Shown here piece after piece: positions 917 to 57,407 of a stretch of 64,000 nt of DNA. The stretch lies in the NCBI RefSeq assembly GCF_037975245.1, contig NC_092577.1:1360001-1424000 (forward strand), read 5' to 3'. Below the pieces are notes generated by a model. The model did no database searches, was not told where the DNA came from, and saw only the letters and a list, made by a program, of their open reading frames with translations. Origin of the DNA: Apostichopus japonicus (Eukaryota > Echinodermata > Holothuroidea > Aspidochirotida > Stichopodidae). Position numbers and translations under genes: made by a program. Position 1 is the stretch's first letter. Each line of letters begins with the position of its first letter.

Positions 917-9145
<8,229 letters not shown>

Positions 9146-16639: not shown

Positions 16640-16660
16640 CCTATATATATATATATATAT
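16579..16660. repeat. (TA)n tract with AGGCCT
   Basis: TA repeat interrupted once by AGGCCT at about 16636. It is mirrored by the (TA)n-AGGCCT tract at 18728-18769 across the element between them. Confidence 0.9.
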
Positions 16661-18727
16661 GGTCAATTCCATGGTGACTCGCGTGAATTTTTACTCAAAT
16701 TCCTCTCTATTTGATATCATTTAACAAATAAAGAAATTACCTGGGAGAAAAGCATTAATGTAGCAGTGAATGTACGCCTTAATGCTTACAACAGTAGAGA
16801 AAAAATATTTATACCTCAAGTATTGGGGGTGAAATTGGCGAAAAACTAAACGTGACTCGCGTGACAGTTACTATTAGCAAAAATCAGAATGCACACACAA
16901 ATGTTCGATTTCTTATGTCTTATTAAAATTTTTCCAATCACTTTTTATAATCATACCGAAGTTGAAAAATACCTCTACCTCAATTGCTATGCAACTTTGA
17001 AAAAAAGTTGTAACGCATGAAAATAACGATGAAGATGTATTGTGACTCGCGTGACAAGAAAACGTGACTCGCGTGACAAGTTCACTTTTCGGATAGTTCT
17101 AGACCAAATGCAGTAGTGAATTGAAGGTACAGATCTTGCATAGTGAAATATAACATTCATTGGTCTAGAAAGTGTCCAAGAGGTACTTCCCTTGGGAATG
17201 TCCAGATGATATTAATGTCCCCGAGTTACCTTCATGACTGCAGACAGTAGGTAATATACTGTACGGGTAGTACAGTTGTTCAGGCAATATATTTTGTAAA
17301 TTAATATTTATAACAATATTTAGTCTGTTGAAGTCACTCATTTGAAAGTTATAGAAGAAACAGATCTATCAAAATGTGATTCAAATTACCATTCTCATTT
17401 GTCATATTTGAATAAACCAAAAGTGTAATATTTGAGAAGATACATTTGCTCATAGGATTTTGGGAATGATTGAGCAGTTAAGACCTTAAGGTTGTCAAGT
17501 CATAGCACATGGAATTGCCAGATACAAATGTAGATTATGTTTTAGTATAATACTAAAAAATCAATGACATGTGCTAACTTTCCAAATGTGGTGATAAAAT
17601 AGGCATTATATTGCGAATAAATATTCATGATTTTAAATTCTGATATTTCAAATGAAATTATGATAATTAGTTGCATTATGTGTGCCCATATTATTCAAGT
17701 TGCCTAATTAAAGGGGAATGCATATATGATATCTTTAATCAGTGATTCATTCATCAAACTAGATAACATCCCTGTAATTTTCACACAGTAAATAGGTAGA
17801 AACACTATCTTGATTTGACGTGACTCGCATGACGTGACTCGCATGACATTCATAAAGGGTGATTTTCTGCAAAATTTGAATGTCTTCTGAAAAGGAAAAT
17901 TCAGTAATCCTTTTGGTATCTATGTGAAGACTTGATATTCATTATTTTGGAGTAAAACTATTGTGCAGGCAAGGAGAAAAAAAGCAAAAACAGTCAATTT
18001 TGTGACTCGCGTGACAGTAAATCGAGGGTGTTTACTGTTTTCTATTTACCACTGTTGTCTAATGCCTTGATATCAAAATAAAATTGAAGCTATTAAGTGA
18101 GCACTATGCAATAGCAAATATAATTAGTCCAACACACAGTAAATAGGTAGAAACACTATCTTGATTTGACGTGACTCGCGTGACGTGACTCGCGTGACAT
18201 TCATAAAGGGTGATTTTCCGCAAAATTTGAATATCTTCTGGAAAGGAAAATTCAGTAATCCTTTTGGTATCTATGTGAAGACTTGATATTCATTATTTGG
18301 GGTAAAACTATTGTGCAGGCAAGGAGAAAAAAAAAACAAAAACAGTAAATTTTGTGACTCGCGTGACAGTAAATGGAGGGTGTTTTCAATTCACCACTTT
18401 TGTCTAATGCCTTGATGTCGAAAAAAAATTGAAGCTATTAAGTGAGCACTATGCTATAGCAAATATAATTAGTCCAAAAGACTGATGATATCTATGATTA
18501 CTATGTACAAATCTGCACAAAATGAAATTTCACTGTATTTTTCATAATTTAGTTACAACAGGAACCATTTGTTATAACTGACCCCATAATCAAACAAATG
18601 ATGTGTCAGGGGTGAAAAAATCATTTTTAGTAACTACAAGTATTCTATTTATTGGAAACTTACACAATTTTGATGTACAATGATTTTAAATTTTTTGGTA
18701 TGATGTTGACCTTATCATGGAATTGAC
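16661..18727. mobile_element. Non-coding 2.07-kb TIR element with ten GTGACTCGCGTGAC motifs
   Basis: The ends are inverted: GGTCAATTCCATG at 16661 and CATGGAATTGACC ending at 18727, each bordered by (TA)n with AGGCCT about 20 bp away. GTGACTCGC(G/A)TGAC occurs at 16673 (13 bp), 16852, 17042, 17064, 17820, 17834, 18002, 18171, 18185 and 18354, in one orientation. Two pairs are joined head to tail. There is no reading frame of 60 codons inside. It looks like a non-autonomous DNA element of a family I do not recognise. Confidence 0.65.
17782..18476. repeat. 351-bp direct duplication inside the GTGACTCGCGTGAC element
   Basis: CACACAGTAAATAGGTAGAA begins at 17782 and 18133. The two copies then match for about 345 bp, including one motif pair and one single motif each. 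Copy 1 has two GTGACTCGCATGAC variants where copy 2 has GTGACTCGCGTGAC. Confidence 0.9.
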
Positions 18728-18741
18728 CATATATATAGGCC

Positions 18742-21026: not shown

Positions 21027-22852
21027 CTATCCCGTGTGTGTTCTTACATGTTTATTCAACTGTCCAGATCTAGCAAACTTTTTCTCACAGTAGCTACACT
21101 GATAAGGCTTCTCTCCTGTATGTGTTCTTTCATGTATATTCAAATTCCCTGATCCAGCAAACATTTTCCCACAGTAGCTACACTGATAAGGCTTCTCTCC
21201 TGTATGTGTTCTTTCATGTATATTCAACATTCCTGATTCGGCAAACATTTTCTCACAGTAGCTACACTGATAAGGCTTCTGTCCTGTGTGTGTTCTTTCA
21301 TGTATATTCAAATTCCCTGATTGGGCAAACATTTTCTCACAGTAGCTACACTGATAAGGCTTCTCTCCTGTATGTATTCTTTCATGGCTCTTCAAACTAG
21401 AGGCTTGGGCAAACTTTTTCTCACAGTAGGTACACTGATAAGGCTTCTCTCCTGTGTGTGTCCTTTCATGTATATTCAACTGTCCAGATCTAGCAAACTT
21501 TTTCTCACAGTAGCTACACTGATAAGGCTTCTCTCCTGTATGTGTTCTTTCATGTCTCCTCATTTGTCCAGATCCAGCAAAATTTTTCTTACAGTAGTTA
21601 CACTGATAAGGCTTCTCTCCTGTATGTGTTCTTTCATGTCTCCTCATTTGTCCAGATCCAGCAAACTTTTTCTCACAGTAGCTACACTGATAAGGCTTCT
21701 CTCCTGTGTGTGTTCTTTTATGTATATTCAACTCTCCTAATTGGGCAAACATTTTCTTACAGTAGCTACACTGATAAGGCTTCTCTCCTGTATGTGTTCT
21801 TTCATGTATATTCAAATTCCCTGATTCAGCAAACATTTCCTCACAGTAGCTACACTGATAAGGCTTCTCTCCTGTATGTATTCTTTCATGGCTCTTCAAA
21901 TTAGCAGAGTGGGCAAACTTTTTCTCACAGTAGGTACACTGATAAGGCTTCTCTCCTGTATGTGTTTTTTCATGTCTCCTCATTTGTCCAGATCTAGCAA
22001 ACATTTTCTCACAATACCTACACTGAAAAGGCTTCTCTCCTGTGTGTGTTCTTTCATGTATGTTCAACTGTCCAGATCTAGCAAACTTTTTCTCACAGTA
22101 GCTACACTGATAAGGCTTCTCTCCTGTATGTGTTCTTTCATGTATATTCAACTGTCCAGATCTAGCAAACTTTTTCTCACAGTAGCTACACTGATAAGGC
22201 TTCTCTCCTGTATGTATTCTTTCATGGCTCTTCAAAATAGCAGCGTGGGCATACTTTTTGTCACAGTATTTACACTGATAAGGCTTCTCTCCTGTATGTA
22301 TTCTTTCATGGTTCTTCAAACTACCAGCGTGGGCATACTTTTTGAAACAGTATTTACACTGATAAGGTTTCTCTCCTGTGTGTGTTCTTTCATGAATCTT
22401 CAAGTTATCAGCACGGGTATACTTTTTGTCACAGTATTTACACTGATAAGGTTTCTCTCCTGTATGTATTCCTTCATGCCTCTTCAAACTAGCAGCTTTG
22501 GCAAACTTTTTGTCACAGTAGTTACACTGATAGGACCTCTCTCCTGCATGTGTTCTTTCATGTTTTTCCACACTTCCAGTGTGAGTAAACAGCTTGCTGC
22601 CATCAACAATGTTGTCAGGATTCTCTCCTCTATAAAGTGTACAATTCTCTGTCTGATTTGGTTTCCCTATAATTTGTTTAGTATCGCCAGAGGATTTTTC
22701 TCCATTATTGACCTCATCCTCCAGGCTGAATAAAACATGACATGAGTAGCTATCAACTGGTTCCACAGACTCCTTTTCTTCCTTCTTAACATCCTGTTGA
22801 TGTCCTTGGTGATGTGTGTGAGCAATGTGTCCAGAGGACAGTCCCTTCGATA
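21027..22852 (-). CDS. Zinc-finger gene A, exon 2: C2H2 array, 18 fingers
   Basis: The acceptor AATTCTCAG|TATCG joins in phase with exon 1 (24015-24078) to give 629 residues. About 110 N-terminal residues hold no KRAB, SCAN or BTB domain (SSGHIAHTHHQGHQQDVKKE, then an acidic stretch). A one-finger-like His-only remnant ([13 protein letters not shown]) leads into 18 C-x2-C-x12-H-x3-H fingers joined by TGEKPYQ linkers, so a nuclear DNA-binding protein is expected. Helices repeat heavily; fingers 5, 6 and 13 are identical (KKFARSGQLNIH). The frame ends at TAG (21027-21029) replacing Glu in a TGEKP linker, with more fingers beyond. Gene A is the first of four paralogues on this strand. No orthologue name can be given. 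Confidence 0.9.
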
Positions 22853-24014
22853 CTGAGAATTTAAGTAAAACAAGGTGAAACAGACAATACTGTCAGCATA
22901 GTGAATCCTATCATGTGAAGAAAAAAAACTGATTCAGAATATTGCAGTTTTTAAATGAGAATATTTCATTTAGGACTATGTAGAGTCACTCTCAACCTTG
23001 CTATTTTTAAGTGATCAGGAAAGTTCTTTCACTGATGTGAGATTATTAACAAGGTTATTGAGATGGGCTTTTCAATTAGCAGTGTGGAATATTTTTCTCT
23101 TCAACGTAAGTTTCACATTGTCACCAGACAATCCTTTAAAATCGAACACAAATCCAACCACAATCTTTAGCTTATATTGACAGAGATTCTCGTGAATACA
23201 ATACAGTACCTCCGGACAACAGAGCAAAATCTAGCTCTCTTTTGGATATATCCAATCCTCTTTCCACATTCCATATCGACATTAAGGGTTACAAAATACG
23301 TTTACAGGAATAGTGGAGTCTTGAGGGTCTTTTTGAGTGTTTGTGGTTCTCTGTTTCCAGGATGATGTTCAAATGCTTCGAGTTAAGAACATTTTAGGAT
23401 TTTTGCCGAAAATATATATACAGAGCCAACTGATGTCAAGATAAATCTTGGAGGGTAAGTGCTATATACAGACATTACAGTATTAAAAAATTCAGAGACG
23501 TTTCCCATGTAAAATAAAGCGAATGAAATTATTAAATTATCTGAGATGCCAGGCCTGTGCTCAAGGAATTTCATATATTATAAACGTTCACGCTTACTGT
23601 ATCATATCATTTATTGAAGCTGCCTCTAAAACCTCTGAATTATTCATAGCCATGCAGTATACAAAATCAAGGATATTCCCAGGAAAGTATTTTTTAAAGT
23701 GGGGTCATTCTGTGAACATATTATTTGTCCGGAGACATTACATGAAATCCAGTGACAGCAGTCCCTGGAAAACAAAGACGTCTGGTCGGGTTAACTTAAA
23801 AATTAAGCTTGCACTAAGATTTAGAACTGCCCTTACATAATATATATATTCTATCCTGTTTTCAGTAATTCATTCTTCGCTCATCTCTTTAGAGAAGTCT
23901 TAAGCACTTAATTTGTTTTGGTTTTTTTGTTGTTGAGCCCATCATGGTACTGCTGTTACTAGGGTCATTTTATATGCTTATACAATATCACTAGACTTTT
24001 CGCGGAACCGTTAC
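22853..24014 (-). other. Intron of zinc-finger gene A
   Basis: A 1.16-kb GT-AG intron. Most of it (for example CTTTTCAATTAGCA.TGTGGAA and GGTTACAAAATACGTTTACA) is matched in genes C and D, showing that the intron was duplicated with the exons. No element is recognised in this copy. Confidence 0.8.
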
Positions 24015-25330: not shown

Positions 25331-25612
25331 ATGTCCAGATAAAGAAATAATTTACTTGTTAAAACTTTATTATTAAAGAACAGATGAAGAGTATAAAGAG
25401 GAGAGGGTTGTAAGAGATAGCAATTTTCGTTTTCATCAAGTATATTAAAACACATCAAAATCAATAACAGTAATATTTATAAGGCAAACTATAATCAAGT
25501 CACTTGGTTAGAATAAGTGGCCAAGTTGAAACAAACGAATTACGTTAATGCCAATTTTAAACTCTAATTCACTACAATAATGACAATAGCTCTTCAAGTA
25601 CCTTCATTTTCC

Positions 25613-27330
25613 AAACACTCCATCCTACATCTCTTACTTTGATAAGTATACTATGCAAAGACTCCATCCTACATCTCTTACTTTGATAAGTATACTATGC
25701 AAAGACTCCATCCTACATCTCTTACTTTGATAAGTATACTATGCAAACACTATATCCTACATCTCTTACTTTGATAAGTATACTACGCAAACACTCCATC
25801 CTACATCTCTTACTTTGATAAGTATATTATGCAAACACTCCATCCTACATCTCTTACTTTGTTAAGTATACTATGCAAACACTCCATCCTACATCTCTTA
25901 CTTTGATAAGTATACTATGCAAACACTATATCCTACATCTCTTACTTTGATAAGTATACTATGCAAACACTCCATCCTACATCTCTTACTTTGATAAGTA
26001 TACTATGCAAACACTATATCCTACATCTCTTACTTTGATAAGTATACTATGCAAGCACTCCATCCTACATCTCTTACTTTGATAAGTATACTATGCAAAC
26101 ACTATATCCTACATCTCTTACTTTGATAAGTATACTATGCAAACACTCCATCCTACATCTCTTACTTTGATAAGTATACTATGCAAAGACTCCATCCTAC
26201 ATCTCTTACTTTGATAAGTATACTATGCAAACACTATATCCTACATCTCTTACTTTGATAAGTATACTATGCAAGCACTCCATCCTACATCTCTTACTTT
26301 GATAAGTATACTATGCAAACACTATATCCCACATCTCTTACTTTGATAAGTATATTATGCAAACACTCCATCCTACATCTCTTACTTTGATATGTAGACT
26401 ATGCAAACACTCCATCCTACATCTCTTACTTTGATAAGTATATTATGCAAACACTCCATCCTACATCTCTTACTTTGATAAGTATACTATGCAAACACTC
26501 CATCCTACATCTCTTACTTTGATAAGTATACTATGCAAACACTATATCCTACATCTCTTACTTTGATAAGTATACTACGCAAACACTCCATCCTACATCT
26601 CTTACTATGATAAGTATACTATGCAAACACTCCATCCTACATCTCTTACTTTGATATGTAGACTATGCAAACACTCCATCCTACATCTCTTACTTTGATA
26701 AGTATGCTATGCAAACACTCCATCCTACATCTCTTACTTTGATAAGTATACTATGCAAACACTATATCCTACATCTCTTACTTTGATAAGTATACTACGC
26801 AAACACTCCATCCTACATCTCTTACTTTGATAAGTATACTATGCAAAGACTCCATCATACATCTCTTACTTTGATAAGTATACTATGCAAACACTCCATC
26901 CTACATCTCTTACTTTGATAAGTATATTATGCAAACACTCCATCCTACATCTCTTACTTTGATATGTAGACTATGCAAAGACTCCATCCTACATCTCTTA
27001 CTTTGATAAGTATACTATGCAAATACTCCATCCTACATCTCTTACTTTGATAAGTATATTATGCAAACACTCCATCCTACATCTCTCACTTTGATAAGTA
27101 TATTATGCAAACACTCCATCCTACATCTCTTACTTTGATAAGTATACTATGCAAACACTCCATCCTACATCTCTTACTTTGATAAGTATACTATGCAAAC
27201 ACTCCATCCTACATCTCTTACTTTGATAAGTATATTATGCAAACACTCCATCCTACATCTCTTACTTTGATAAGTAAACTATGCAAACACTCCATCCTAC
27301 ATCTCTTACTTTGATAAGTATACTATGATG
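25613..27330. repeat. 44-bp satellite, about 39 copies
   Basis: The unit ACTCCATCCTACATCTCTTA plus CTTTGATAAGTATACTATGC plus AAAC repeats every 44 bp for 1.7 kb. Variants (ACTATATCC, GCACTCC, GATATGTAGAC, AGACTCC) recur in blocks. GCAAGCACTCC units lie 220 bp apart (5 units), which hints at higher-order duplication. Confidence 0.95.
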
Positions 27331-30232: not shown

Positions 30233-31332
30233 CTAATGAGGCTTCTCTCCTGTGTGTGTTCTTTCATGCCTCTTCAAAGTTTGAGACCGGGCAAACAATT
30301 TCTTACAGTAGCTACATTGATAAGGCTTCTCTCCTGTGTGTGTTATTTCATGTCTCTTTACTCTAGCAACTGTGGCAAACTTTTTGTCACAGTAGTTACA
30401 CTGAAATGGCTTCTCACCTGTGTGTGTACTTTCATGTGTCCTAACTTGTCCAGATTCAGCAAACAATTTCTTACAATAGCTACACTGATAAGGTTTCTCT
30501 CCTGTGTGTGTTTTTTCATGTGTCCTCAATGTTCCAGACTGAGCAAACTTCTTCTTGCAATAGCTACATTGATAAGGCTTCTCTCCTGTGTGAGTTCTTT
30601 CATGTCTCCTTCTTTCTGCAGATGTAAAAAACTTCTTGTCACAGTAGTTGCACTGATAAGGCTTCTCTCCTGTGTGCGTTCTTTCATGTCTCCACATTTG
30701 TCCAGATCCAACAAACTTTCTCTTACAGTAGTTACACTGATAAGGCTTCTCTCCTGTATGCGTTCTTTCATGTGCCTGCAAGCAACCAGTTTGGGAAAAT
30801 GTTTTCCCACAATAGCTACACTGATAAGGCTTCTCTCCTGTATGTGTTCTTTCATGTGTCCTCAAATGTCGACATGAAGAAAATTTTTTCCCACAATAGC
30901 TACACTGATAAGGCTTCTCTCCAGTATGCGTTCTTTCATGTTCCCTCAAACTTGAAGATTGAGCAAACATTTTCTGACAGTAACTACAATGGTAAGGCTT
31001 CTCTGCTTTGTGTGTACTTTCATGTATCTTCAATTGTCTAGATTCAGCAAACATTTTCTCACAGAAGTTGCACTGATAAGGATTCCCTCCTTTATATGTT
31101 CTTTCATGGCTCTTCAAACTAGCAGCTTGAGCAAACATTTGGTCACAGTAGTTTTGTTTGGAATCACCAAAGGAGTTTTCTCCATCATTGGCCTTATCCT
31201 CCAGTCTGAATAAAACATGACATGAGTAGCTATCAAGTGGTTCCCCAGACTCCTTTTCTTTCTTTGTAACATCCTGTTGATGTCCTTGGTGATGTGAGTG
31301 AGCAATGTGTCCAGAGGACAGTCCCGGCGATA
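30233..31332 (-). CDS. Zinc-finger gene B, exon 2: C2H2 array, 10 fingers
   Basis: The acceptor CAATTCTCAG|TATCGCC joins exon 1 (33721-33775) in phase to give 384 residues. The N-terminal region repeats the SPGLSSGHIAHSHHQGHQQD and EPLDSYSCHVLF blocks of the paralogues but is shorter. It runs directly into a degenerate finger ([18 protein letters not shown], one Cys and last His lost), then 10 complete fingers. Helices differ from gene A (SCRHLRTH, TGCLQAH, SAERRRH), so B is the most diverged member. The frame ends with TAG replacing the Gln of the next KPHQC. A nuclear DNA-binding role is expected from the family; targets are unknown. Confidence 0.88.
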
Positions 31333-31972
31333 CTGAGAATTGAAGCAAAACACAAGGTGAAAATAGAAGGCTGTCAGGACATTGGTTCATATTTTAATGT
31401 GACATTTTAAAAGAGATAATTTTCATTTATGACTACAGATCAAAGTTGCATTCAATCTTGCTATTCAGTAGCACCAAGAAGGTTCTAGCACTCCTGTGAA
31501 CTTCATATGGTACTTCAGATGACATTTGAGCTTTGTGCACATGCAGCCTGCAGTGCCCTGCACAAATCTGTGTTCTACAGTACAGTAATTCCTGAAATGA
31601 ATTTGCATACCACACATGAAGTTATTTCAAGCTTCAGTTTTAGGTGTAAAAAGGAGTTTCTGGATATAATGATGATAGCTTTTAAACAAACTTACTAAAA
31701 AGACACATCCTCGTAGCATTTTGGATCAATAAGATTGGAATGTGTAAATATTGAGAGAACTTGTAATTGCATGCATCTGCCAACAGCAGAATAAAGTCAT
31801 CAGATTAAAATGTCTTTGTTTGTCTAAAATTGAATTATAAATTCAGAGTTGTTTGCTAATTTGAATTTATTTCTGGAACATTCATAAAAACCCAGTAACA
31901 ATTCTGTAGGCAATTTTAATCTTGGGATAGTACAGTAGCCTACTGTACATGGAATCAAGCCTATACTAAATG

Positions 31973-36401: not shown

Positions 36402-37777
36402 CTAATAAGGCTTCTCTCCTATATGTGTTCTTTCATGAGTCCTCATATGTCCAGATTGAGAAAACTTTTTCTTACAGTAGTTACACTGATAAGGTTTCTC
36501 TCCTGTGTGTGTTCTTTCATGTGCCCTCAATGTTCCAGATTGAGCAAACATTTTCTCACAGTAACTACACTGATAATGCTTCTCTCCTGTATGTATTTTT
36601 TCATGTTTCCTCAAACTGTCAGATGACGCAAACATTTTCTTGCAGTAACTACACTGAAAAGGCGTCTCTCCTGTGTGTGTTCTTTCATGTATATTCAACT
36701 GTCCAGATCTAGCAAACATTTTATCACAGTAGCTACACTGATAAGGCTTTTCTCCTGTGTGTGTTCTTTCATGTATATTCAACTGTCCAGATCTAGCAAA
36801 CATTTTATCACAGTAGTTACACTGATAAGGCTTCTCTCCTGTATGTGTTCTTTCATGACTCCTCATATGTTCAGATTGAAAAAACTTTTTGTCACAGTAG
36901 TTGCACTGATAAGGCTTCTCTCCTGTATGTGTTCTTTCATGATTCCTTATTTTTCTAGAATCAGCAAACATTTCCTTACAGTATTTACACTGATAAGGTT
37001 TCTCTCCTGTATGTGCTCTTTCATGCCTCTTCAGATTATCACCGTGGGCATACCATTTGTCACAGTATTTACACTGATATGGCTTCTCTCCTGTATGTGT
37101 TCTTTCATGTTTATTCAAACTTCCTGATTCAGCAAACATTTTCTCACAGTAGCTACACTGGTAAGGCTTCTCTCCTGTATGTGTTCTTTCATGACTCCTC
37201 ATATGTCCAGATTGAGAAAACTTTTTGTCACAGTAGTTACACTGATAAGGCTTCTCTCCTGTATGTGTTCTTTCATGCCTCTTCAGATTATCACCGTGGG
37301 CATACCATTTGTCACAGTATTTACACTGATATGGCTTCTCTCCTGTATGTGTTCTTTCATGACTCCTCATATGTCCAGATTGAGAAAACTTTTTGTCACA
37401 GTAGTTACACTGATAAGGCTTCTCTCCTGTATGTGTTCTTTCATGCCTCTTCAGATTATCACCGTGGGCATACCATTTGTCACAGTATTTACACTGATAT
37501 GGCTTCCCTCCTGTATGTGTACTTTCATGTCTCCTCTTATGTCCAGATTCAGCAAACTTTTTGTCACAGTAGTTACACTGATAAGGTTTCTCTCCTGTGT
37601 GTTTTCTTTCATTCCTCTTCAAACTATCAGCGTAGGTGTGGGCATACTTGCTGAGTAACAGATGACATGAGTAGGTATCAACTGGTTTCACAGACTCCTT
37701 TTCTTCCTTCTTAACATCCTGTTGATGTCCTTGGTGGTGTGAGTGAGCAAAGTGTCCAGAGGACAGTCCCTGTGATA
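36402..37777 (-). CDS. Zinc-finger gene C, exon 2: C2H2 array, 14 fingers
   Basis: The acceptor TTCTCAG|TATCACAG joins exon 1 (41745-41808) in phase to give 479 residues. The SQGLSSGHFAHSHHQGHQQD and [13 protein letters not shown] blocks are kept. The acidic middle and the HTGSVEKH piece of gene A are deleted, so the array follows quickly after a degenerate finger (YADSLKRNERKH). Fourteen complete fingers follow. Fingers 2-3 are repeated exactly as 4-5 (KWYAHGDNLKRH with KKFSQSGHMRSH), evidence of recent two-finger duplication. The frame ends at TAG for Gln in KPYQC. The intron is about 4 kb because a LINE has inserted. DNA-binding role is inferred from the family. Confidence 0.9.
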
Positions 37778-38225
37778 CTGAGAATTTAAGGAAAATCAAG
37801 GTGAAACAGACAATACCGTCAGCATGGTGAATCCTAAATTATGTGAAGGAAAAAACTGATTCAGAATATTGCAGTTTTTAAATGAGAATATTTCATTTAG
37901 GACTATGTAGAGTTGCTCTGAACCTTGCTATTTTTAAGTGATTAGGAAAGTTCTTTCACTGATGTGAAATTATTAACAAGGTTATTGAGATGGGCTTTTC
38001 AATTAGCAATGTGGAATATTTTTCTCTGCAATGTAAGTTTCACATTGTCACCGGACAATCCTAAAATGGAACACAAATCCAACTACAATTTTTAGTTTAG
38101 TTTTAGTTTAGTAGAAAAAAGGATCAGGAGGGACACTTAAGTCCATAACTTAAGACCATAACTGACCTTTGGGGACCTTTGTGGGCACCAAAAACAATAG
38201 GGCACACCTTCTCCATATGGGGGAT

Positions 38226-39690
38226 CTATAGTCCAAGTTTGGCCTCAATCCAACATTCCCTTATTGAGATAGAGCGTACCCAAGCAAGTGTCACAGACGC
38301 ACACACACACACACACACACACGCCAACCTGACTGCAAAGGTTCCTTTTGCTAAAGCAAGGAACCAAAAGTCGGCAAAGGATAAATTGTCAAAACCATAC
38401 ACAATCTTGAAAACCTGGATCAAGTCCACACGTAACCTCCTAAGCTCCAGTGTGGTGAGATTCAACAGTTGTAACCGCCTATAATAAGGAACCCTCTTTA
38501 AGGAACTAATCATCCTAGTAGCCCTTCTCTGGACCTTTTCAAGTACTTCCTTATCCTTAGCAAAATAAGGGTTCCAAGCCTGCACAGCATACTCCAGATG
38601 AGGCCTAACCAACTGCTTATAAAGCCTAACTACTATGTCCTCTTTCAGAAAACTGAAGTTCCTCTTGATCATACCTAAAACCCTATTACCTCTTTTAGCA
38701 GAGCCTTCAAGACAATGTTTAGAAGGCTGCAGAGATGATCGAGTCAATGTAGATACCTAGGTCTCTTTCAACAGAGACCTCCTGTAACTCCACCCCATTA
38801 AGATTGTATGTAAACTTTTGGTTACTACTACCAATGTGCATTACCTTACATTTATCAATATTAAAAAGCATATGCCACCCCAAAGACCAGGAAAAAATCT
38901 TATCCAAATCCACTTGAAATTTCTCAGAATCACTTTTGGAACAGACCTCAGAATACAATTTGGTGTCATCAGCAAACTTCTTAGCTGTACACAAAATATC
39001 TCCGTCAATGTCATTTATATAGGCAACAAACAACAAGGGACCTAATACAGACCCTTGTGGAACACCACTAGTAACGTTCTGCCAAGAAGAAGCACAGCCT
39101 TTAATTACCACCCTCTGTTCCCTATTACCAAGCCAATTCCCGATCCAAGACAGTAAATTCCCTATGACACCCATGCTCTTCAGCCTAGGTAAAAGACGCT
39201 GGTGGGGAACTTTATCAAAGGCCTTCTGGAAATCCAGGAACACAACATCTACAGACTTCTGCCTATTTAGTGAGCTTGTTACATCTTCCATAAACTCAAG
39301 GATATTAGTGAGACAAGACCTCTTTTGACAAAAGCCATGTTGAGACTCTCTGATCAAAGACTGACTGCTGAAGTGACAGACCATAGACTTTTTAACAATA
39401 GACTCCATGACCTTACAAACTACACTAGTGAGACTAACAGGCCTATAATTACAGGGCTTAGACTTACCAGTATCACCCTTCTTGAAAATTGGGGTAATAT
39501 TAGCACATCTCCAGTCCCTAGGAACATAACCTTCATCCATAAATTTACTAAAAACCAACGAGAGTGGAACGCAGAAATGGTGTGCAAAAGTCTTCAACAA
39601 ATACGGATGGATTGCATCCGGTCCAGAAGCTTTAGAAACATTTAGACAAAGCAGCTCCTTTAAGACAACCTCATCCGAAAATAAGACCGT
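38226..39690 (-). pseudogene. LINE reverse transcriptase
   Basis: It begins with the block SKASGPDAIHPYLLKTFA and includes ITPIFKKGD, NYRPVSLTSV, VFLDFQKAFDKVPH, GVPQGSVLGPLLFVAYIND and the catalytic FADD (KKFADDTKLYS). A frameshift near 38745 separates it from the C-terminal LEYAVQAWNPYFAKD and RRATRMI region, which lies in another frame down to about 38370. The connecting segment toward the endonuclease is at 39968-40195 (PHWMNKKVICAIRQKRRMWK). Confidence 0.88.
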
Positions 39691-40218
39691 ATCCAGTTTA
39701 GGCCTATCACTGCCCCCCTGAAAATCTGGAATACTACTCGTACTGTATCTTCCCTTGTGAAAACCAACACAAAATAGTTGTTCAAAAGATCTGCAAGATC
39801 CTGACTATCAGTAACTATATTATCAGCCCGTGGTGCCCTAAGAGAACAATTGCATCTTGAACTTTCTGCTTTGACCTGACATAAGAAAAGAAGGCCTTTG
39901 GGTTATCCTTAATTTTTAGGGCAATGCTTTTTTTCGAAATTCAATTTTGCATGAAAGACTAAGCATTCTACTGTACCTTCAGCTGATGAACTTTAAACTT
40001 GGCCAAAACAGATTCAGATTTAGTCCTCCTAAACAACTTCCACATTCTTCGTTTTTGCCTAATTGCACATATAACTTTCTTATTCATCCAATGAGGCACA
40101 CTGCTTTTACGACGACGATTCTTCCACGGAACATGATTTTCCATAATGACCTTTAATTTATCAGCAAAACAAATCCAAGACTGAGAAGCACTCATACTGT
40201 ATCTCTAAACAAATTAAT

Positions 40219-41000
40219 CTAATCTGTACCCTTTAGTAAAGTTTCAATTGCCTTAAAAAAACCAGGGACTTTTTCATTGCTAACAGAATTGACGACTTTG
40301 CAAACAACATCAAAAGCTAGTATGTCATGATCACTAGTTCCTAGTTTTCCTAGACCCGTCAAATCAACAACATTGCTTGGATTAGAACTCAAAACAAGAT
40401 CCAGGATGTTATCCCCACTAGTAGGGAAAGTAACATGTTGATGTAAAAAGCAATCTTGCACAACATCTAGAAAATTACTACCCTTCCTACTACTAGAACC
40501 ATCTATCCAATTAATGTCAGGAAAATTAAAGTCGCCCATTATAACAACATCACCTTTAGCAGCCTTTCTTAGAATTGAATCAAACAGCACAACATCATTA
40601 TCATCGCTGCTGTTAGGAGAGCGGTAAACAACACCCACAGTGATAATGTCCCTGGACCTCTTGGACTTGTTTGTGGACAACTTGCACCAGACAGAATTAA
40701 CAAAAGCCCCTTGCAACTGAGATTTCTCAACACTTACAATGTCATCCCTAACATACTGTACAGTAAAACTTCCCCACCAACCCCGTTATGAGTATCCCTT
40801 TTGTCCTAACGATACACAACATACCCCGGGTGAGAAACCTCAGCACTATCAATGTCCTCCCTTAACCAAGATTCGGTGATACCAAACACATACGGTTTCA
40901 GATCCTCAAGAATCACAGTAAATTCAGCAAAATTTTTACGAATACATTTTCTAGCATTGGTAAAGACAATCTTCAGCTTATCCATGAAACTATGTACCTT
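40219..41000 (-). pseudogene. LINE apurinic-type (EEP) endonuclease region
   Basis: The minus strand reads KIVFTNARK and GITESWLRED upstream in broken frame. An open stretch (40716-40219) then has VGVVYRSPNS, VVIMGDFNFPDINWID, DLVLSS and GTSDHDILAFDV. GDFN, the N-W and SDH blocks are the catalytic landmarks of EEP endonucleases in LINEs. They are present but the protein is interrupted. Confidence 0.8.
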
Positions 41001-45039: not shown

Positions 45040-45147
45040 GTAAGTGTATTTTTTCAATCGAGAATGGTGCCCACACACTGGTAACTTGGCAAAAGGCGAC
45101 GAGCGCCATCTAATTTTACTTAACTACTTTTAATGACTGTTTTTCAG
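45040..45147 (+). other. Predicted 108-bp intron in the PLE leader
   Basis: CAG|GTAAGTG at 45040 is a consensus donor lying 10 bp inside the terminal repeat. TGACTGTTTTTCAG at 45134-45147 is a good acceptor with a pyrimidine tract. The RT start codon follows 9 bp later (45156 region). No frame runs through it. Confidence 0.6.
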
Positions 45148-45155
45148 ACAGAAAC

Positions 45156-46960
45156 ATGTCCAATATAGAGTTTATTGCGTTGGGAAAAGGTCTGAAGTTC
45201 ATAGCAACTCCAGTAAAACCTAAACGAAGTGATCTTCTCAAGTCATTAAAAGACCTTAAAAGAAAAATGAGAATCCGCTTCATCATGCAGAATAAAATGC
45301 AAAAAGGGATTACAAAATTCCGTCTACCCTCCACATGGTCACCTAACATGACTTTTAGTAAAAACCTAGAGGACTATCTGGAAGCAACACAAACCGAAAT
45401 GGCAAGTGTTACTATCCGAAACGCCAATAGCAACACGCATAAGGCGGAACGTTTTGCACTAAATGCAATTAAAAACGACCACTCTATTATTGTCAAACCC
45501 TTCGATAAAAGTAGAGGCATTGCTTTAATAAATCACTCAGACTATCAAGCCGAAATTGAAAGGCAATTAGCTAGTCACCACTACGAAAGTTAAAAAGTGA
45601 TATGACGTTTCAAACTAAAAGTTTAGCCCAGGAAACACTAATTGATATGTTCTCTGCAAAAGAGATCGATAAAAGCACCTTCGAGTACTTGTCACCATAT
45701 AGCCACAAAATCCGCACACCGGTCATATATGTGCTACCAAAAATTCATAAAGCACCCCGGCTAACTCAAAATTTGCCGGTAGACCGATAATAAGTGGAAA
45801 CGGATCACCGACCGAAAAAAATATCGGAATTTGTGGACTATTTCTTGCTTCCTATTGTAATAAAACAAAGCACTTATGTGAAAGACACAAATCACATTCT
45901 GCAAATTTTGGAAGCCACCCCGTTACCAAAAATGGCAGTACTTGCTACACTCGATGTCGTCGCCATGTATACCAATACTCCCCAAGAGGAGGCATTACAT
46001 ATATGTCAAGAAGTCTATGAAAAGACGGAACAAAGCGAATATGGAATAAATAAAATATCTTCCATATCCATGCGCAAACTAATTGAACTCATCTTAACAA
46101 GAAACTGTTCCGAGTTCAATAAACAATTCTATCTAAAAAGATCGGTTGCGCCATGGGTAGCCAAGCCTCTCCGGAAATCTGCGATATCGTCATGCATAGA
46201 CTTGAAAACCAGATTTTACCGACAGATAATAAAATCTTAAAATGGCTCCGCTATAGAGATGACATTCTATTGCTCTACGACGGTACACATCAGGAACTTG
46301 AACTTTTAGTGAAAAGGTGGAATGAAATTCACCGCTTCTTAAAGTTTACGGTAGTAATATCAAACACCGAGGTAACATACCTAGATTTGAAAATCTTCAA
46401 AGGTACAAGGTTCGAAACCAATGGGTTATTAGACACTAAAGTCCACACCAAACCCACGGAAACCTTCCAATACCTCGACAGAAACTCTGCACACCCACTT
46501 GCCACTTTTACAGGCTTCATTAAAGGGGAAATATTACGATACGCACGTCTCTGTAACAACGAGACTGACTTCTTAGAGAAAAAGAATGCGTTCACAGAGA
46601 AACTGTTACTCCGTAACTATAAGAAAGAGCAAATTGCCACAGCCACTAAAGGCATACAATTTGAAAACCGTAGGCATTACCTCACTACCAATCCAGGAAC
46701 CACCACTGGTGTTCAAGCTTACCTATACACCCCACATCAAAACCACGCATTTGAAGAAAGCACTTTTGAAACATTGGCACTTAATTTCGAAACACGCGGA
46801 ATTATCCAAACTGTTTCCAAAAGAACCGATTCTAGCCTACAAAAGGGCCCAAAATCTCAAAGATTTACTTGTTAACTCAAGGTTTCGTACTAACGAAGAA
46901 TCAGCTGACTCTCAAGGTTCACACGAAGCTCTTTTAGATGCTCTTATAGATGAACTATGA
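45156..46960 (+). pseudogene. Penelope-like element reverse transcriptase, frame-broken, no endonuclease seen
   Basis: Conserved PLE blocks appear in order across several frames: LGKGLKFIATP, ALNAIKNDHSIIVKPFDKSR, PVIYVLPKIHK, GRPIISGNG, EFVDYFLLPIV..STYVKDT, LATLDVVAMYTN, the MGSQASPEICDIVM equivalent of the MGSP.SP block, YRDD (WLRYRDDILLLYD) at the active site, and LDLKIFKG..KPTETFQYLD. The end reads LFPKEPILAYKRAQNLKDLL. Frame changes fall near 45592, 45780, 45825, 46145 and 46690, so it is dead. The last frame stops after LLDALIDEL, before any Cys cluster or GIY-YIG domain, and none precedes the RT. PLE reverse transcriptases are telomerase-related. Confidence 0.88.
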
Positions 46961-47291
46961 GTCCATAAAAACTCGTGCACAGAAAACAGATGCATTTTGA
47001 GAACGAGACGCTCATGCCGAATATAAAATATTCAAAGGCTTACTACTGATGAAGCTCCTATAAAAGTTGAGAGCAGAAACCGGTCTAGTTGGTCATAAGA
47101 ATTACCTACGCTAGTCTTTCTTACTATTAAAAGTACACTCAATTCACCTAATAGGTGCAATTATGTTTCACCATGATGGGCATGCTATAAGTTCATGTTC
47201 TTCGGGCCCTCCCTTAAAAATACATCAGGTTCTTGGCCACTACGTTGCGTTAGATAGTGTAAAACCGCCTACACCCCCATTTCAAGTTAAT

Positions 47292-48260
47292 AATAACATA
47301 TGTAAATTACAATGGAAAAACAATAAGAAATATTCATTACTTTAAAAACATTCAATGATTTGACGGAGAGAATAATAAAACCAGGCAAAATGATAGTAAG
47401 CAAGACTCTGTAAAGTTGATAATAACATATGTAAATTACAATGGAAAAACAATAAGAAGTATTCATTATTTTAAAAACATTCAATGATTTGACGGAGAGA
47501 ATAATAAAACCAGGCAAAATGATAGTAAGCAAGACTCTGTTAAGTTGATCATAACATATGTAAATTACAATGGAAAAATAATAAGAAGTATTCATTATTT
47601 TAAAAACATTCAATGATTTGACGGAGAGAATAATAAAACCAGGCAAAATGATAGTAAGCAAGACTCTGTTAAGTTGATAATAACATATGTAAATTACAAT
47701 GGAAAAACAATAAGAAGTATTCATTATTTTAAAAACATTCAATGATTTGACGGAGAGAATAATAAAACCAGGCAAAATGATAGTAAGCAAGACTCTGTAA
47801 AGTTGATAATAACATATGTAAATTACAATGGAAAAACAATAAGAAGTATTCATTATTTTAAAAACATTCAATGATTTGACGGTGAGAATAATAAAACCAG
47901 GCAAAATGATAGTAAGCAAGACTCTGTTAAGTTGATAATAACATATGTAAATTACAATGGAAAAATAATAAGAAGTATTCATTATTTTAAAAACATTCAA
48001 TGATTTGACGGAGAGAATAATAAAACCAGGCAAAATGATAGTAAGCAAGACTCTGTTAAGTTGATAATAACATATGTAAATTACAATGGAAAAACAATAA
48101 GAAGTATTCATTATTTTAAAAACATTCAATGATTTGACGGAGAGAATAATAAAACCGGGCAAAATGATAGTAAGCAAGACTCTGTAAAATTAATAATAAC
48201 ATATGTAAATTAAAATGGAAAAATAATAAGAAGTATTCATTATTTTAAAACATTAAATAA
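47292..48260. repeat. 129-bp tandem satellite, about 7.5 copies, inside the PLE
   Basis: AATAACATATGTAAATTACA recurs at 47292, 47421, 47550, 47679, 47808, 47937, 48066 and 48195. The period is exactly 129, a multiple of three, so the minus strand stays open for 296 codons (43-residue repeat with LTIILPGFIILSVKSLN). Copies are nearly identical. I treat the frame as a by-product of the period. Confidence 0.95.
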
Positions 48261-48373
48261 TTTGATTTGGAGTTCATTCACCATACTTTGGTGCTTTATT
48301 ACTACGACAACCCACCTTACCGACACTGTACACAAGGTACTTTCCAAACCTAGCACAAACCCATCCATATTAT

Positions 48374-53381: not shown

Positions 53382-55894
53382 TCACTGATAAGGCTTCTCA
53401 ACTGTGTGTCTTATTTCATGGCTCTTTAAACTAGCAGCTTGGACAAACTTTTTGTCACAGTAGCAACACTGATAAGGCTTCTCCCCTGTATGTGTTCTTT
53501 CATGCCTCTTCAAATTAGAGGATTGGGCAAACTGTTTGTCACAATAATTGCACTGATATGGCTTCTCTCCTGTGTGTGTTCTTTCATGTATCCTCAGTTT
53601 TCCAGATTCAGCAAACATTTTCTTACAGTATTTACACTGATAAGGCTTCTCTCCTCTGTGCCGTCTTTCATGGCTCTTCAAACTAGAAACTTGAGTAAGC
53701 GTTTTGTCACAGTATTTACACTGATATGGCTTCTCTCCAGTATGTGTTCTTTCATGGTTCTTCAAACTACCAGCTTGGGTAAATGCTTTGTCACAGTATT
53801 TACACTGATATGGCTTCTCTCCTGTATGTGTTCTTTTGTGGATCTTCAAACTACCAGCTTTGGTAAATGATTTGTCACAGTACTCACACTGATAAGGTTT
53901 CTCCCCTGTATGTATTACTTCATGTTTACTCAAATTTTCAAATAAATCAAACTTTTTGTCACAGTAGTTACACTGATAAGACTTCTTTTCTGTGTGTCTT
54001 CTTTCATGTCTCCTCATTGTTCCAGATTCAGCAAACATTTTCTTACAATAGTTACACTGATATGGCTTCTCTCCTGTATGTGTTCTTTCATGGCTCTTCA
54101 AACTAGAGGATTGGGCAAACTGTTTGTCACAATACTTGCACTGATATGGCTTCTCTCCTGTGTGTGTTCTTTCATGTATCCTCAGTTTTCCAGATTCAGC
54201 AAACATTTTCTCACAGTAGTTACACTGATAAGGCTTCTCTCCTGTGTGCCGTCTTTCATGCCTCTTCAAACTAGAAACTTGGGCAAATTTTTTGTCACAG
54301 TAGTTACATTGATAAGGCTTCTCTCCTGTATGTATTCTTTCATGTATCTTCAATTGTCCAGAGTGAGCAAACATTGTCTCACAGTAGTTACACTGATAAG
54401 GCTTCATTCCTGTGTGTGTTCTTTCATGTATCTTCGTTTGTGCAGAGTAAGCATACGATTTGTCACAGTATTTGCACTGATAAGCCTTCTCTCCTGTATG
54501 TTTTCTTTCATGTATCCTCATTTTTTTAGATTCAGCAAACTTTTTGTCGCAGTAATTACACTGATAAGTTTTCTCACCTGCATGTGTTCTTACATGCCTC
54601 TTTAAACTAGCAGCCTGGGCAAACTTTTGGTCACAGTAGTTACACTGATAAGGCTTCTCTCCTGTATGTGTTCTTTCATGCCTCTTCAAACTAGAGGCTT
54701 GGGCAAACTTTTTGTCACAGTAGTTACACTGATAAGGCTTCTCTCCTGTATGTATTCTTTCATGTATCTTCAACTGTCCAGAGTAAGCAAAGGTTTTCTT
54801 ACAGTAGTTGCACTGATATGTTTTCTTTCCTGTGTGTGTTCTTTCATGTATCCTCAAAGTGTCAGATTGAGCAAACATTCTATTACAGTATTTACACTGA
54901 TGAGGCTTCTCTCCTGTATGTACTATTTTATGTGTTCTCAAACTTTCAGATAAAGCAAACTTTTGCTTACAATAGTTACACTGATATGGCTTCTCTCCTG
55001 TATGTGTTCTTTCATGTCTTCTCATTTCTCCAGAATCTGCAAACATTTTTTTACAATAGTTACACTGATAAGGCTTCTCTCCTGTATGTTTTCTTTTATG
55101 AACCTTTAAATTAGAAACATGGGCAAAATTTTTGTCACAGTATTTACACTGATAAGGTTTCTCTCCTGTGTGTGTTCTTTCATGCTTCCTCATATGTCCA
55201 GATTCAGCAAACTTTTTGTCACAGTAGTTGCACTGATAAGGCTTCTCTCCTGTATGTGTTCTTTCATGTATCCTCATTTGTCCAGATTCAGCAAACTTTT
55301 TGTCACAGTAGTTACACTGATAAGGTTTCTCTCCTGTATGTGTTTTTTCATGGCTCTTCAATCTAGCAACTAGGTAAAACTTTTTGTTGCAGTAATTACA
55401 CTGATAAGGCTTCTCTCCTGAATGTGTTCTTTCATGTACCCTCATTTGTCCAGAATAAGCAAACATTTTCTTACAGTGACTACACTGATAAGGTTTCTCT
55501 CCTGTATGTGTTCTTACATGCCTCTTCAATCTTGAAGCTAGGGCATACTTTTTTTCACAGTAGTTACACTGATAGGACCTCTCTCCTGCATATGTTTTTT
55601 CATGTTTTTCCACACTTCCAGTGTGAGTAAACAGCTTGCTGCCATCAATACCGTTGTCAGGATTCTCTCCTCTATGAAGTGCACAATTCTCTGTCTGTTT
55701 TGGTTTCCCTATTATTTGTTTAGTATCGCCAGAGGATGTTTCCCCATCATTGGCCTCATCCTCCAGGCTGAGTAACAGATGACATGAGTAGCTATCAACT
55801 GGTTCCACAGACTCCATTTCTTCCTTTCTAGCATCCTGTTGATGTCCTTGGTGATTTGAGTGAGCAATGTGTCCAGAGAACAGTCCTTGCGATA
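53382..55894 (-). CDS. Zinc-finger gene D, exon 2: C2H2 array, 26 fingers
   Basis: The acceptor AATTTTCAG|TATCGC joins exon 1 (57408-57471) in phase to give 858 residues, the largest of the cluster. The N-terminal part is like gene A in full: [20 protein letters not shown], an acidic region ([18 protein letters not shown]), then [20 protein letters not shown]. Twenty-six complete C2H2 fingers follow, nearly all with TGEKPYQ linkers. Recurrent helices are ASSLKRH, SGQMRIH and SGKLRIH. The frame ends at TGA (53382-53384) exactly where the first Cys of finger 27 should be (TGT expected), and damaged fingers follow. It is the best-preserved member. A nuclear DNA-binding protein is expected; no effector domain or orthologue is recognised. 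Confidence 0.92.
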
Positions 55895-57407
55895 CTGAAA
55901 ATTTAAGCAAAACACGAAACACAAAATTATGACAACAGAAACCAACTGTTTTAGTAATTCTTCTTTTCATAAATGAGAATATTTCATTTATTACTACAGA
56001 CAAGATTTGCTTTCAACAAGGTCTTGCTATTTTTAAGTGATCAGGGAGGTTCTTGCACTGATGTGAAATTGTCAACAAGGTTATTGAGATGGGCTTTTCA
56101 ATTAGCAGAGTGCAATAACTTTCACTTAATAGTTTTATCCACATTGTCACCAGACTAGCAGAGCATCCTCAAAAAAATGAAACAAATCCAACCAATATAT
56201 CCCATCCTACTTCCACACTCCATAAAGACATTAAGGGTTACACGATACGTTTACAGGAAAAGTGGAGTTTTGAGGGCCTTTTTGGGTGTTTGTGGCACTT
56301 GGTTTCCAGGATGATGTTCAAATGCTTGAGTCTAGAACACCTTAGGATTTTTTCCCTAGATGAAAATTGCGAATTGATGTCAAAAAGAAAACCTTGGAGG
56401 GTAAGTGCTATATGCACTTATTAAACAATTCAAAGAGTTGTTTTCCATGTAAAATACTGCCCTTAAAATTTAGATGATCTGAGATCCTTAAAGTCAAATT
56501 TTACAAAAGTTCAACGCTTGCAAGATGTTTCATATACTGTATTGAAGCGGTGTGTAAAACCATTGAATATGTAGCCAGCTTATAGATTCAAGTCAATTCC
56601 AAGGAAAGTTTGTAAAAGGTGTGGTCATTTCTGTGAACATTTCTCATCTGGAGATATTATATGGAATCCAGTGACTGCACAGTCCCTTGAAAACAAAGAT
56701 ACAATACAGTGATGTATTTGGTCATGTTTTCTTATGTAAGCATGGCCGATTACGGTAAATGTAGAGTTCGGAAGGATACAAAATTGTACTATGTACAACA
56801 CTGTGAACTCTGCGTAACAAATATTTAATCAAAAGTACTATGTACAACACTGGATTCGTGCATAACATACATTTAATCAAAAGTACTTTGTACAACACTG
56901 GATTCCTGCGTAACATATATTTAATCAAACGTACTATCTAACAACTCTTGGCCAACTCAACTAGCCTTCTCTACAAGCGAGCCAGGGCTCGCCGACAGCT
57001 ACTGTAACATGCATCAATAAACATAAAGATTAAACTATTGTTACAAAAATAAAGGGCATTATTCCTTTATCGTCTTAGCATTTCGGATAAATACAAGTGA
57101 GGGATAAAGGTTAAGGGTGAGAGTTAACTTTACAATTGAATACAGTCGTTTGTTATTTCATTAAAAATATTGTGGGCCAGCAGTATTTATTATAAGATGT
57201 TACACTTATAAATTATGCATGCAGTTAAAACTGGTCTTACATAATAACCTTGGTTATTTATCCTGTTCTACCTATTGAGTAATGCTTCGTCGCTCATCTA
57301 CTTAGAGAAGTCTTAATCACTTCATTATTTAACGCATAACGGTACTAACTGGTGTTTAATAGGCCAATTTTTATACAATATAACTAGACTATTCGCGGAA
57401 CCGTTAC
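55895..57407 (-). other. Intron of zinc-finger gene D
   Basis: A GT-AG intron of 1.5 kb. The part 55900-56700 matches introns A and C (GAGATGGGCTTTTCAATTAG, GGTTTCCAGGATGATGTTCA). The stretch 56780-56940 holds a 3-fold ~55-bp repeat around ATTTAATCAAAAGTACT.TG. The upstream-most 180 bp (57227-57407) match the E copy. Confidence 0.75.

Follow-up and report, generated by a model that had tools for sequence, protein, structure and literature searches.

In CACTA (En/Spm) and hAT (Ac/Ds) transposons, an element-encoded protein binds many short subterminal repeats; these repeats occur in both orientations and cluster no more than a few hundred bp from the ends. In transposons with short terminal inverted repeats (TIRs), the recognition code is usually visible only close to the tips. 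A different arrangement is described for Galileo, where transposase-binding sites reside far inside the element, in internal repeats that are part of long inverted repeats (PMC3688188, in part). According to the excerpted account of Sola2 elements in PMC3627910, their TIRs span 12 to 13 bp or 21 bp, and insertion yields 4-bp AT-rich duplications of the form AWWT (ATAT, AAAT, ATTT). The excerpt of a second source (PMC10294476) provides Sola2 counts without end sequences.

The window analyzed here, a stretch of 64,000 nucleotides of Apostichopus japonicus DNA, carries a non-autonomous DNA transposon whose inverted ends measure 13 bp and whose target duplications measure 4 bp; we refer to its family as A (Table 1). 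Ten copies of the 14-mer GTGACTCGCGTGAC are present on one strand between positions 16674 and 18367, seven of them exact and three with one mismatch, whereas shuffled sequences are expected to yield 0.11. An earlier note on this DNA had reported ten same-strand copies, and this claim is borne out, as is its description of a CRE-like TGACGTGA at the two tandem joints (17830 and 18181); the same motif also occurs at 17816 and 18167. The inverted ends named in that note are likewise present, and its right border at 18727 is one base short because the right inverted end occupies positions 18716 to 18728. The note had also found no frame of 60 codons. This holds for frames that start with ATG, the longest of which is 58 codons, and fails for stop-to-stop frames, of which the minus strand has five of 61 to 74 codons. 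A Pfam scan of the two longest stop-to-stop frames of family A (74 and 71 codons) gave no match at E values up to 1. The element is a non-autonomous cut-and-paste transposon, and we judge it probable that its 14-mers are binding sites of a trans-mobilizing protein, most likely a transposase.

Table 1. Features of the family A element in the window
Feature	Position	Strand	Basis or remark
Family A transposon, two-unit form, 2068 bp	16661..18728	+	genome search and copy comparison
Left TIR GGTCAATTCCATG, 13 bp	16661..16673	+	inverted-end match
Right TIR GGTCAATTCCATG, 13 bp	18716..18728	-	inverted-end match
Target duplication ATAT, left copy	16657..16660	.	inside (TA)n, hence length ambiguous in window copy
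Target duplication ATAT, right copy	18729..18732	.	flank comparison
14-mer site 1	16674..16687	+	last base changed in window copy
14-mer site 2	16852..16865	+	match to GTGACTCGCGTGAC
14-mer site 3	17042..17055	+	match to GTGACTCGCGTGAC
14-mer site 4	17064..17077	+	match to GTGACTCGCGTGAC
14-mer site 5	17820..17833	+	one change
14-mer site 6	17834..17847	+	one change; tandem with site 5
14-mer site 7	18002..18015	+	intact in window copy; degenerate in family consensus
14-mer site 8	18171..18184	+	match to GTGACTCGCGTGAC
14-mer site 9	18185..18198	+	match to GTGACTCGCGTGAC; tandem with site 8
14-mer site 10	18354..18367	+	match to GTGACTCGCGTGAC
Internal unit, first copy	17782..18132	+	1 to 3 units per element genome-wide
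Internal unit, second copy	18133..18477	+	about 93% identity to first copy

Other features of the window include four long minus-strand frames in succession for C2H2 zinc fingers in 84-bp units (21027-22892, which was subjected to a Pfam scan, 30233-31393, 36402-37838 and 53382-56012). Retroelement remains are present at 38719-40785 on the minus strand, with RVT_1 and an endonuclease domain, and at 45114-46960 on the plus strand, where the RVT_1 match is below its cut-off. Long tandem arrays occupy 25612-27327 (period 44 bp), 47284-48265 (129 bp) and 58218-60516 (212 bp).

We searched the genome (671,581,487 bases in 35 contigs) with a 2067-base family A query and scored the best 40 of 171 candidates. 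The matches comprise 44 stretches distributed over 40 places, including the window; at 31 of these places the match spans the entire query or lacks only its first 2 to 5 bases. Excluding the window copy, the 30 whole or near-whole matches share 92 to 98% identity with the query. An exact 23-base string, comprising the left TIR and the start of the adjoining site, occurs 74 times in the genome (reversed control, 0), and the 13-base TIR occurs 239 times, versus 15 for its reversed control. Thus, other copies exist, and their absence, which the earlier note had named as grounds for rejecting its element, is not borne out. The copies appear young, with a mean pairwise divergence of 3.5% and a closest pair at 0.05% among 30 two-unit copies. 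Two loci (L011 and L012) have common flanks, so at least this pair is a segmental duplication.

The ends and flanks of 39 of the 40 scored places were compared. Both 13-bp TIRs are exact in 31 of the 39 copies, where they coincide with the copy borders as the earlier note had proposed, and the other eight have a changed or missing end. The target duplications that it had proposed to read also emerged: 4-bp flanks are equal in 32 of 39 copies, versus a mean of 17.6 and a maximum of 23 after flank shuffling. The 32 perfect duplications comprise 24 ATAT, two AGAT, two ATAG, and one each of TGGT, ATGT, TTGT and ATAA. Among the seven copies with unequal flanks, L020 has TTAG to its left and right on the assumption that a terminal G was lost, as judged by eye. 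The window copy has (TA)n on both sides. A specificity for (TA)n, where the earlier note had proposed to read the target duplications, is not supported, since (TA)n of at least 20 bp surrounds 10 of the 39 copies. We read the target as a 4-bp ATAT-like site, and the frequent (TA)n flanks as a consequence of (TA)n often offering such a site.

These properties are those of a non-autonomous TIR transposon: TIRs at copy borders, a 4-bp duplication, ATG frames of at most 58 codons in family A, and longest stop-to-stop frames in family A and in its sister family B (see below) that lack a Pfam match over the cut-off. Several known classes were considered and set aside. Tc1/mariner elements duplicate TA, whereas family A duplicates 4 bp, with TGGT, AGAT and TTGT among the duplications. 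PIF/Harbinger elements generate 3-bp duplications; flanks are equal over 3 bp in 1 of 39 copies versus 32 of 39 over 4 bp. The TTAA typical of piggyBac and Kolobok is absent among the 32 perfect duplications. For hAT, P and MULE elements, whose duplications span 7 to 11 bp, the corresponding counts are 0 of 39 for both 5-bp and 7-bp equality and 9 of 39 for 8 bp, and all nine of these copies have ATAT flanks in (TA)n. Helitrons have neither TIRs nor target duplications, and family A has both. MITEs are smaller than about 800 bp; the main form of family A is about 2067 bp, and one 720-bp copy (L070) has its middle deleted.

Family A also varies in the number of its internal units of about 345 to 351 bp. 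The unit is present once in L023 through L027, twice in 30 copies, and three times in L028 (by alignment) and in L037 and L038 (by length), and L039 is a truncated copy. CACG replaces CATG in the left end of L019, L091, L093, L094 and L095. At L023, a 586-bp inverted duplication (456-1041 and 2789-3374, 99.8% identical) consists of the left flank together with 41 bases from the start of a family A copy, and we read it as a recent rearrangement starting at the transposon end.

The majority consensus of the 30 two-unit copies contains nine perfect same-strand 14-mers, at positions 14, 193, 383, 405, 1161, 1175, 1511, 1525 and 1692. The window copy has lost the final C of its first site (GTGAA) and carries one G-to-A change in the sites at 17820 and 17834, and the consensus is perfect at all three. 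Among the 30 copies, five variant events fall on the 82 non-CpG positions of the 14-mers (0.061 per position), versus a mean of 0.309 and a lowest random set of 0.129 in random-window controls. Thus, they hold about five times fewer non-CpG variants than the rest of family A, and their CpG positions, too, are less variable. Private changes number 4 in 82 site positions versus 441 in 1898 positions elsewhere.

We extended this analysis to 75 distinct left ends, obtained by collapsing identical sequences among 94 BLAST rows. The first 27 positions were omitted because many copies had been picked by those positions. Shared variants number 0 in the 28 non-CpG positions of sites 2 to 4, versus 97 in 415 positions elsewhere, whereas private changes in the same sites are hardly depleted (8 versus 11.9 expected, P = 0.16). 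The absence of inherited variants with tolerance of recent ones is what selection for transposition competence would predict. The few private changes in the 30-copy set are not fully explained by such selection.

Could the 14-mers instead be passive, an internal minisatellite whose copies are kept alike through duplication and gene conversion? Elements do hold one, two or three copies of the unit of about 350 bp with its three sites, tandem pairs occur, and L008 has three sites in a row. However, unit duplication accounts only for the right-arm sites of family A. The left-arm sites are embedded in their own sequence, are no less perfect in the consensus, and reappear at comparable distances in two sister families described below. 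Together with variant counts below those of the surroundings, these observations make a passive origin quite improbable.

A sister family, B, adjoins the family A copy at L062. Its end, GGGCGATTCCATG, is followed directly by a different 14-mer, GTAACTCGCATTAC, which recurs at +178, +365 and +380. The best BLAST match between family A and this neighbor covers bases 1 to 33 (82%, E = 5e-4). Family B is 2551 bp long with the end sequence ...CACGGAATCGCCC, and the two full copies that were read are 98.3% identical and flanked by duplications of ATAT and TTAT. A genome search, in which the best 40 of 86 candidates were scored, gave 49 matched stretches, and exact B left ends (TIR plus site) number 35 (reversed control, 0). 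Four B-type left ends, at C2:5794701, C9:24061737, C9:37143420 and C12:25134632, fall outside the 40 scored places. Two stop-to-stop frames of B (92 to 93 codons) gave no Pfam match over the cut-off, with one chance-like match to DASH_Ask1 (E = 0.053). Among four B pieces, which are too few for a strong test, 1 of 112 site columns varies versus 59 of 2219 others. Five B copies lie on one strand within about 0.5 Mb (C22:16913447-17418644), probably as a local duplication cluster. Separately, L002 has a degenerate pair, GTAACTCACGTTAC-G-GTAACTCATGTTAC, on the reverse strand (1469-1497), into whose edge a family A copy is inserted; this pair may be a remnant of B or of yet another family.

A third end type, C, reads ATTCCA[C/T]GGTTACTCACGTTAC, is found exactly at 28 places (reversed control, 0), and is paired with the 14-mer GTTACTCACGTTAC. 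The TIRs of B and C are related to that of family A. The one C copy that was read, L122, has sites at 48, 236, 425 and about 440 when the locus is reversed. Of these, the first alone is exact, and the fourth, which contains extra bases, was identified by eye. A search with the first 637 bases of L122, whose initial screen can miss weak matches, found eight places: itself, three at 66% over 347 bases, and four over the first 57 bases. With only these eight places matching, several different bodies seem to lie behind C-type ends. L122 also holds, at about 678-1213 of the reversed locus, a nested repeat of about 535 bp, whose best 39 of 1610 candidate places match at 91 to 93%, and which we read as a probable very abundant short repeat.

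The layout of the sites is similar in the left arms of all three families and in the right arms of A and B. In the left arms of B and C, a 14-mer lies directly inside the TIR and others follow about 178-188, 365-377 and 380-392 bp further. Left-arm sites start at 14, 193, 383 and 405 in A, at 14, 192, 379 and 394 in B, and at +0, +188, +377 and about +392 from the first site in C. The start-to-start distances are therefore 179, 190 and 22 in A (medians, 38 copies), 178, 187 and 15 in B, and 188, 189 and about 15 in C. Counted from the right end, right-arm sites start at 557, 543 and 375 in the one-unit A copy L024 and at 584, 566, 550 and 384 in B, and the last close site precedes the single site by 168 (A) or 166 (B) bases. 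The middles differ in length, at about 760 (A) versus 1570 (B) bases.

The site letters differ at 3 of 14 positions for each pair of families, and only positions 3, 8, 10 and 12 are involved. The family-specific letters are present in all nine consensus sites of A and in all eight sites of one B copy, and the other full B copy has one site change, at 1985. We compared the spacers with 200 letter shuffles in six left-arm and two right-arm comparisons among A, B and C. Local z scores range from -0.3 to 3.0 (highest for A/B spacer 2) and global z scores from -0.2 to 2.6 (highest for the right end of A and B); the local z is 3.7 for a longer left-hand stretch of A and B with site 2 included. From these scores and the BLAST comparison of A with the element at L062, similarity outside the TIRs and sites is weak at most. 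Each family thus has its own 14-mers at similar distances amid weakly similar spacers, which suggests that the sites change jointly and the layout persists while the body turns over. With some spacer comparisons slightly above shuffles, the similarity in layout could be inherited rather than selected.

The earlier note's proposal that the 14-mers are putative transposase sites is strengthened by the sister families, which retain the layout and switch their 14-mers together. The note had also considered a host bZIP or bHLH factor. More broadly, the 14-mers may bind a host protein of this type, or a C2H2 zinc-finger protein, as an array for expression, silencing or tethering rather than for the chemistry of transposition. 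The presence of TGACGTGA at the tandem joints and of several C2H2 zinc-finger arrays within the same window is compatible with this alternative, and same-strand sites across the element are more in keeping with a regulatory array than with classical end sites. However, the joints that create TGACGTGA are absent from B, where close sites are 1 to 4 bases apart, and the letters switch by family while the TIR, the layout and the adjacency of site and TIR persist, as would be expected if each family had a protein of its own. We therefore regard a host-protein array as unlikely, and host bZIP or bHLH binding as less likely than binding by a transposase.

No transposase or autonomous partner was found behind the family A ends that were read, which are 66 of the 74 exact left ends: 30 at L040-L069, 20 at L102-L121, and 16 at other loci. 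All 66 have family A next to the end. At L059, family A continues for only 307 bases before an unrelated insertion, and L023 contributes two of the 16 ends, one of them a 41-base fragment. The remaining eight comprise five (one on C7 and four on C8) with a right end about 2.05 kb away, one on C20 and two on C21. Some 26 unpaired 13-mer ends were picked by eye among the first 100 of the 239, and 19 were read; 15 proved to be family A and four did not (L082, L084, L085 and L088), a number to be read against the 15 genome-wide matches of the reversed control. The foreign DNA inside two A copies (L059, judged by inspection, and L087 with L090) represents interrupting insertions, and the stretch around the latter has no frame of at least 140 codons. 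TIR-plus-site strings without family A behind them were found at two places, a variant of A and family C.

Two further leads were rejected. PF25273 (DUF7869), which we presumed on a hunch to be linked to transposons and tried as a marker of the autonomous partner, has 53 matches, the nearest of which is 38.6 kb from any of the 74 A, 40 B or 28 C places, and the literature searched contains no mention of DUF7869 together with a transposase. A palindromic ancestor of the 14-mer, GTAACTCGCGTTAC, was rejected because its genomic match count equals that of the reversed control (1 versus 1).

How might such an array operate? A mobilizing protein, most likely a transposase, would read GTDACTCRCRTKAC through a DNA-binding domain and load on a phased array, formed on the left by the site touching the TIR and by sites about 180 and 370 bp inward, the latter with a close second one, and on the right by a close pair or triplet and a single site starting 375 to 384 bp from the right end. 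The loaded protein would then pair the two short TIRs to allow cutting, followed by insertion at ATAT-like targets. The spacing of 166 to 190 bp may set the sites on neighboring nucleosomes or linkers. Each mobilizing protein would keep the sites of its own family alike and leave spacer DNA free to change, which would explain why families differ in site letters and little in layout. From the sequence comparisons we infer that a trans-acting protein binds the 14-mers, that it is a transposase, and that concerted change of the sites reflects change of that protein. Two features speak against this model: all sites have the same orientation in both arms, and the last right-hand site ends about 360 to 370 bp before the right tip. 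The ends of DDE transposons usually carry mirror-image sites.

A bolder and rather doubtful proposal is that an undescribed transposase lineage acts on a one-directional 14-bp array with nucleosome-like spacing (about 166 to 190 bp) in both arms, that the sites coevolve with the protein, and that the elements are otherwise empty scaffolds whose bodies are exchanged between families. If true, this would add a new architecture of end recognition to those of eukaryotic cut-and-paste transposons. Within one genome, several families with a common layout and differing letters offer a natural experiment on how a DNA-binding domain and its site change together. If the array is a docking platform for a transposase, it would also permit a direct test of the part played in transposition by the spacing, which is near the nucleosome repeat length, and give a handle on the mobilizing enzyme. 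The string GTGACTCGCGTGAC is absent from the literature text searched, a weak test of novelty that covers paper text only, and titles and abstract openings of the literature on Sola2, subterminal repeats and echinoderm elements hold no description of family A.

Among known systems, Micron-type elements in (TA)n resemble family A in its frequent (TA)n flanks, and differ in that only 10 of 39 family A copies lie in long (TA)n and that TIRs are present. CACTA and hAT elements have many short repeats in common with family A and differ in the clustering and orientation of these repeats and in target-duplication sizes. Galileo, a Foldback-like member of the P superfamily, is similar in having several THAP sites, some at 561-577 and 701-718 bp, in internal direct repeats; its sites are held in 1.2-kb TIRs and hence mirrored, whereas family A has 13-bp TIRs and one-strand sites (PMC3688188, in part).

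Sola2 resembles family A in its ends, with short TIRs (12-13 bp in one species) and 4-bp AT-rich duplications that include ATAT; the excerpt of PMC3627910 that describes them does not mention a same-strand 14-mer array such as that of family A, for which no transposase was found among the ends read. Family A may be a non-autonomous member of Sola2 with an array that is an undescribed and ordinary trait of the group, a reading that we hold slightly short of even and that is compatible with a transposase acting on the 14-mers. Its 13-bp TIRs fall within the 12 to 21 bp described for Sola2, and 24 of 39 copies have ATAT duplications, as that excerpt describes, although several of the eight other perfect duplications (TGGT, TTGT, AGAT) are less AT-rich than AWWT. 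A mobilizing protein of Sola2 type is only a lead, drawn from TIR length and 4-bp AT-rich duplications. On this comparison, family A is of a known kind as a non-autonomous TIR transposon, and what appears new is the array of 14-bp sites, phased and all in one direction, that runs along the element.
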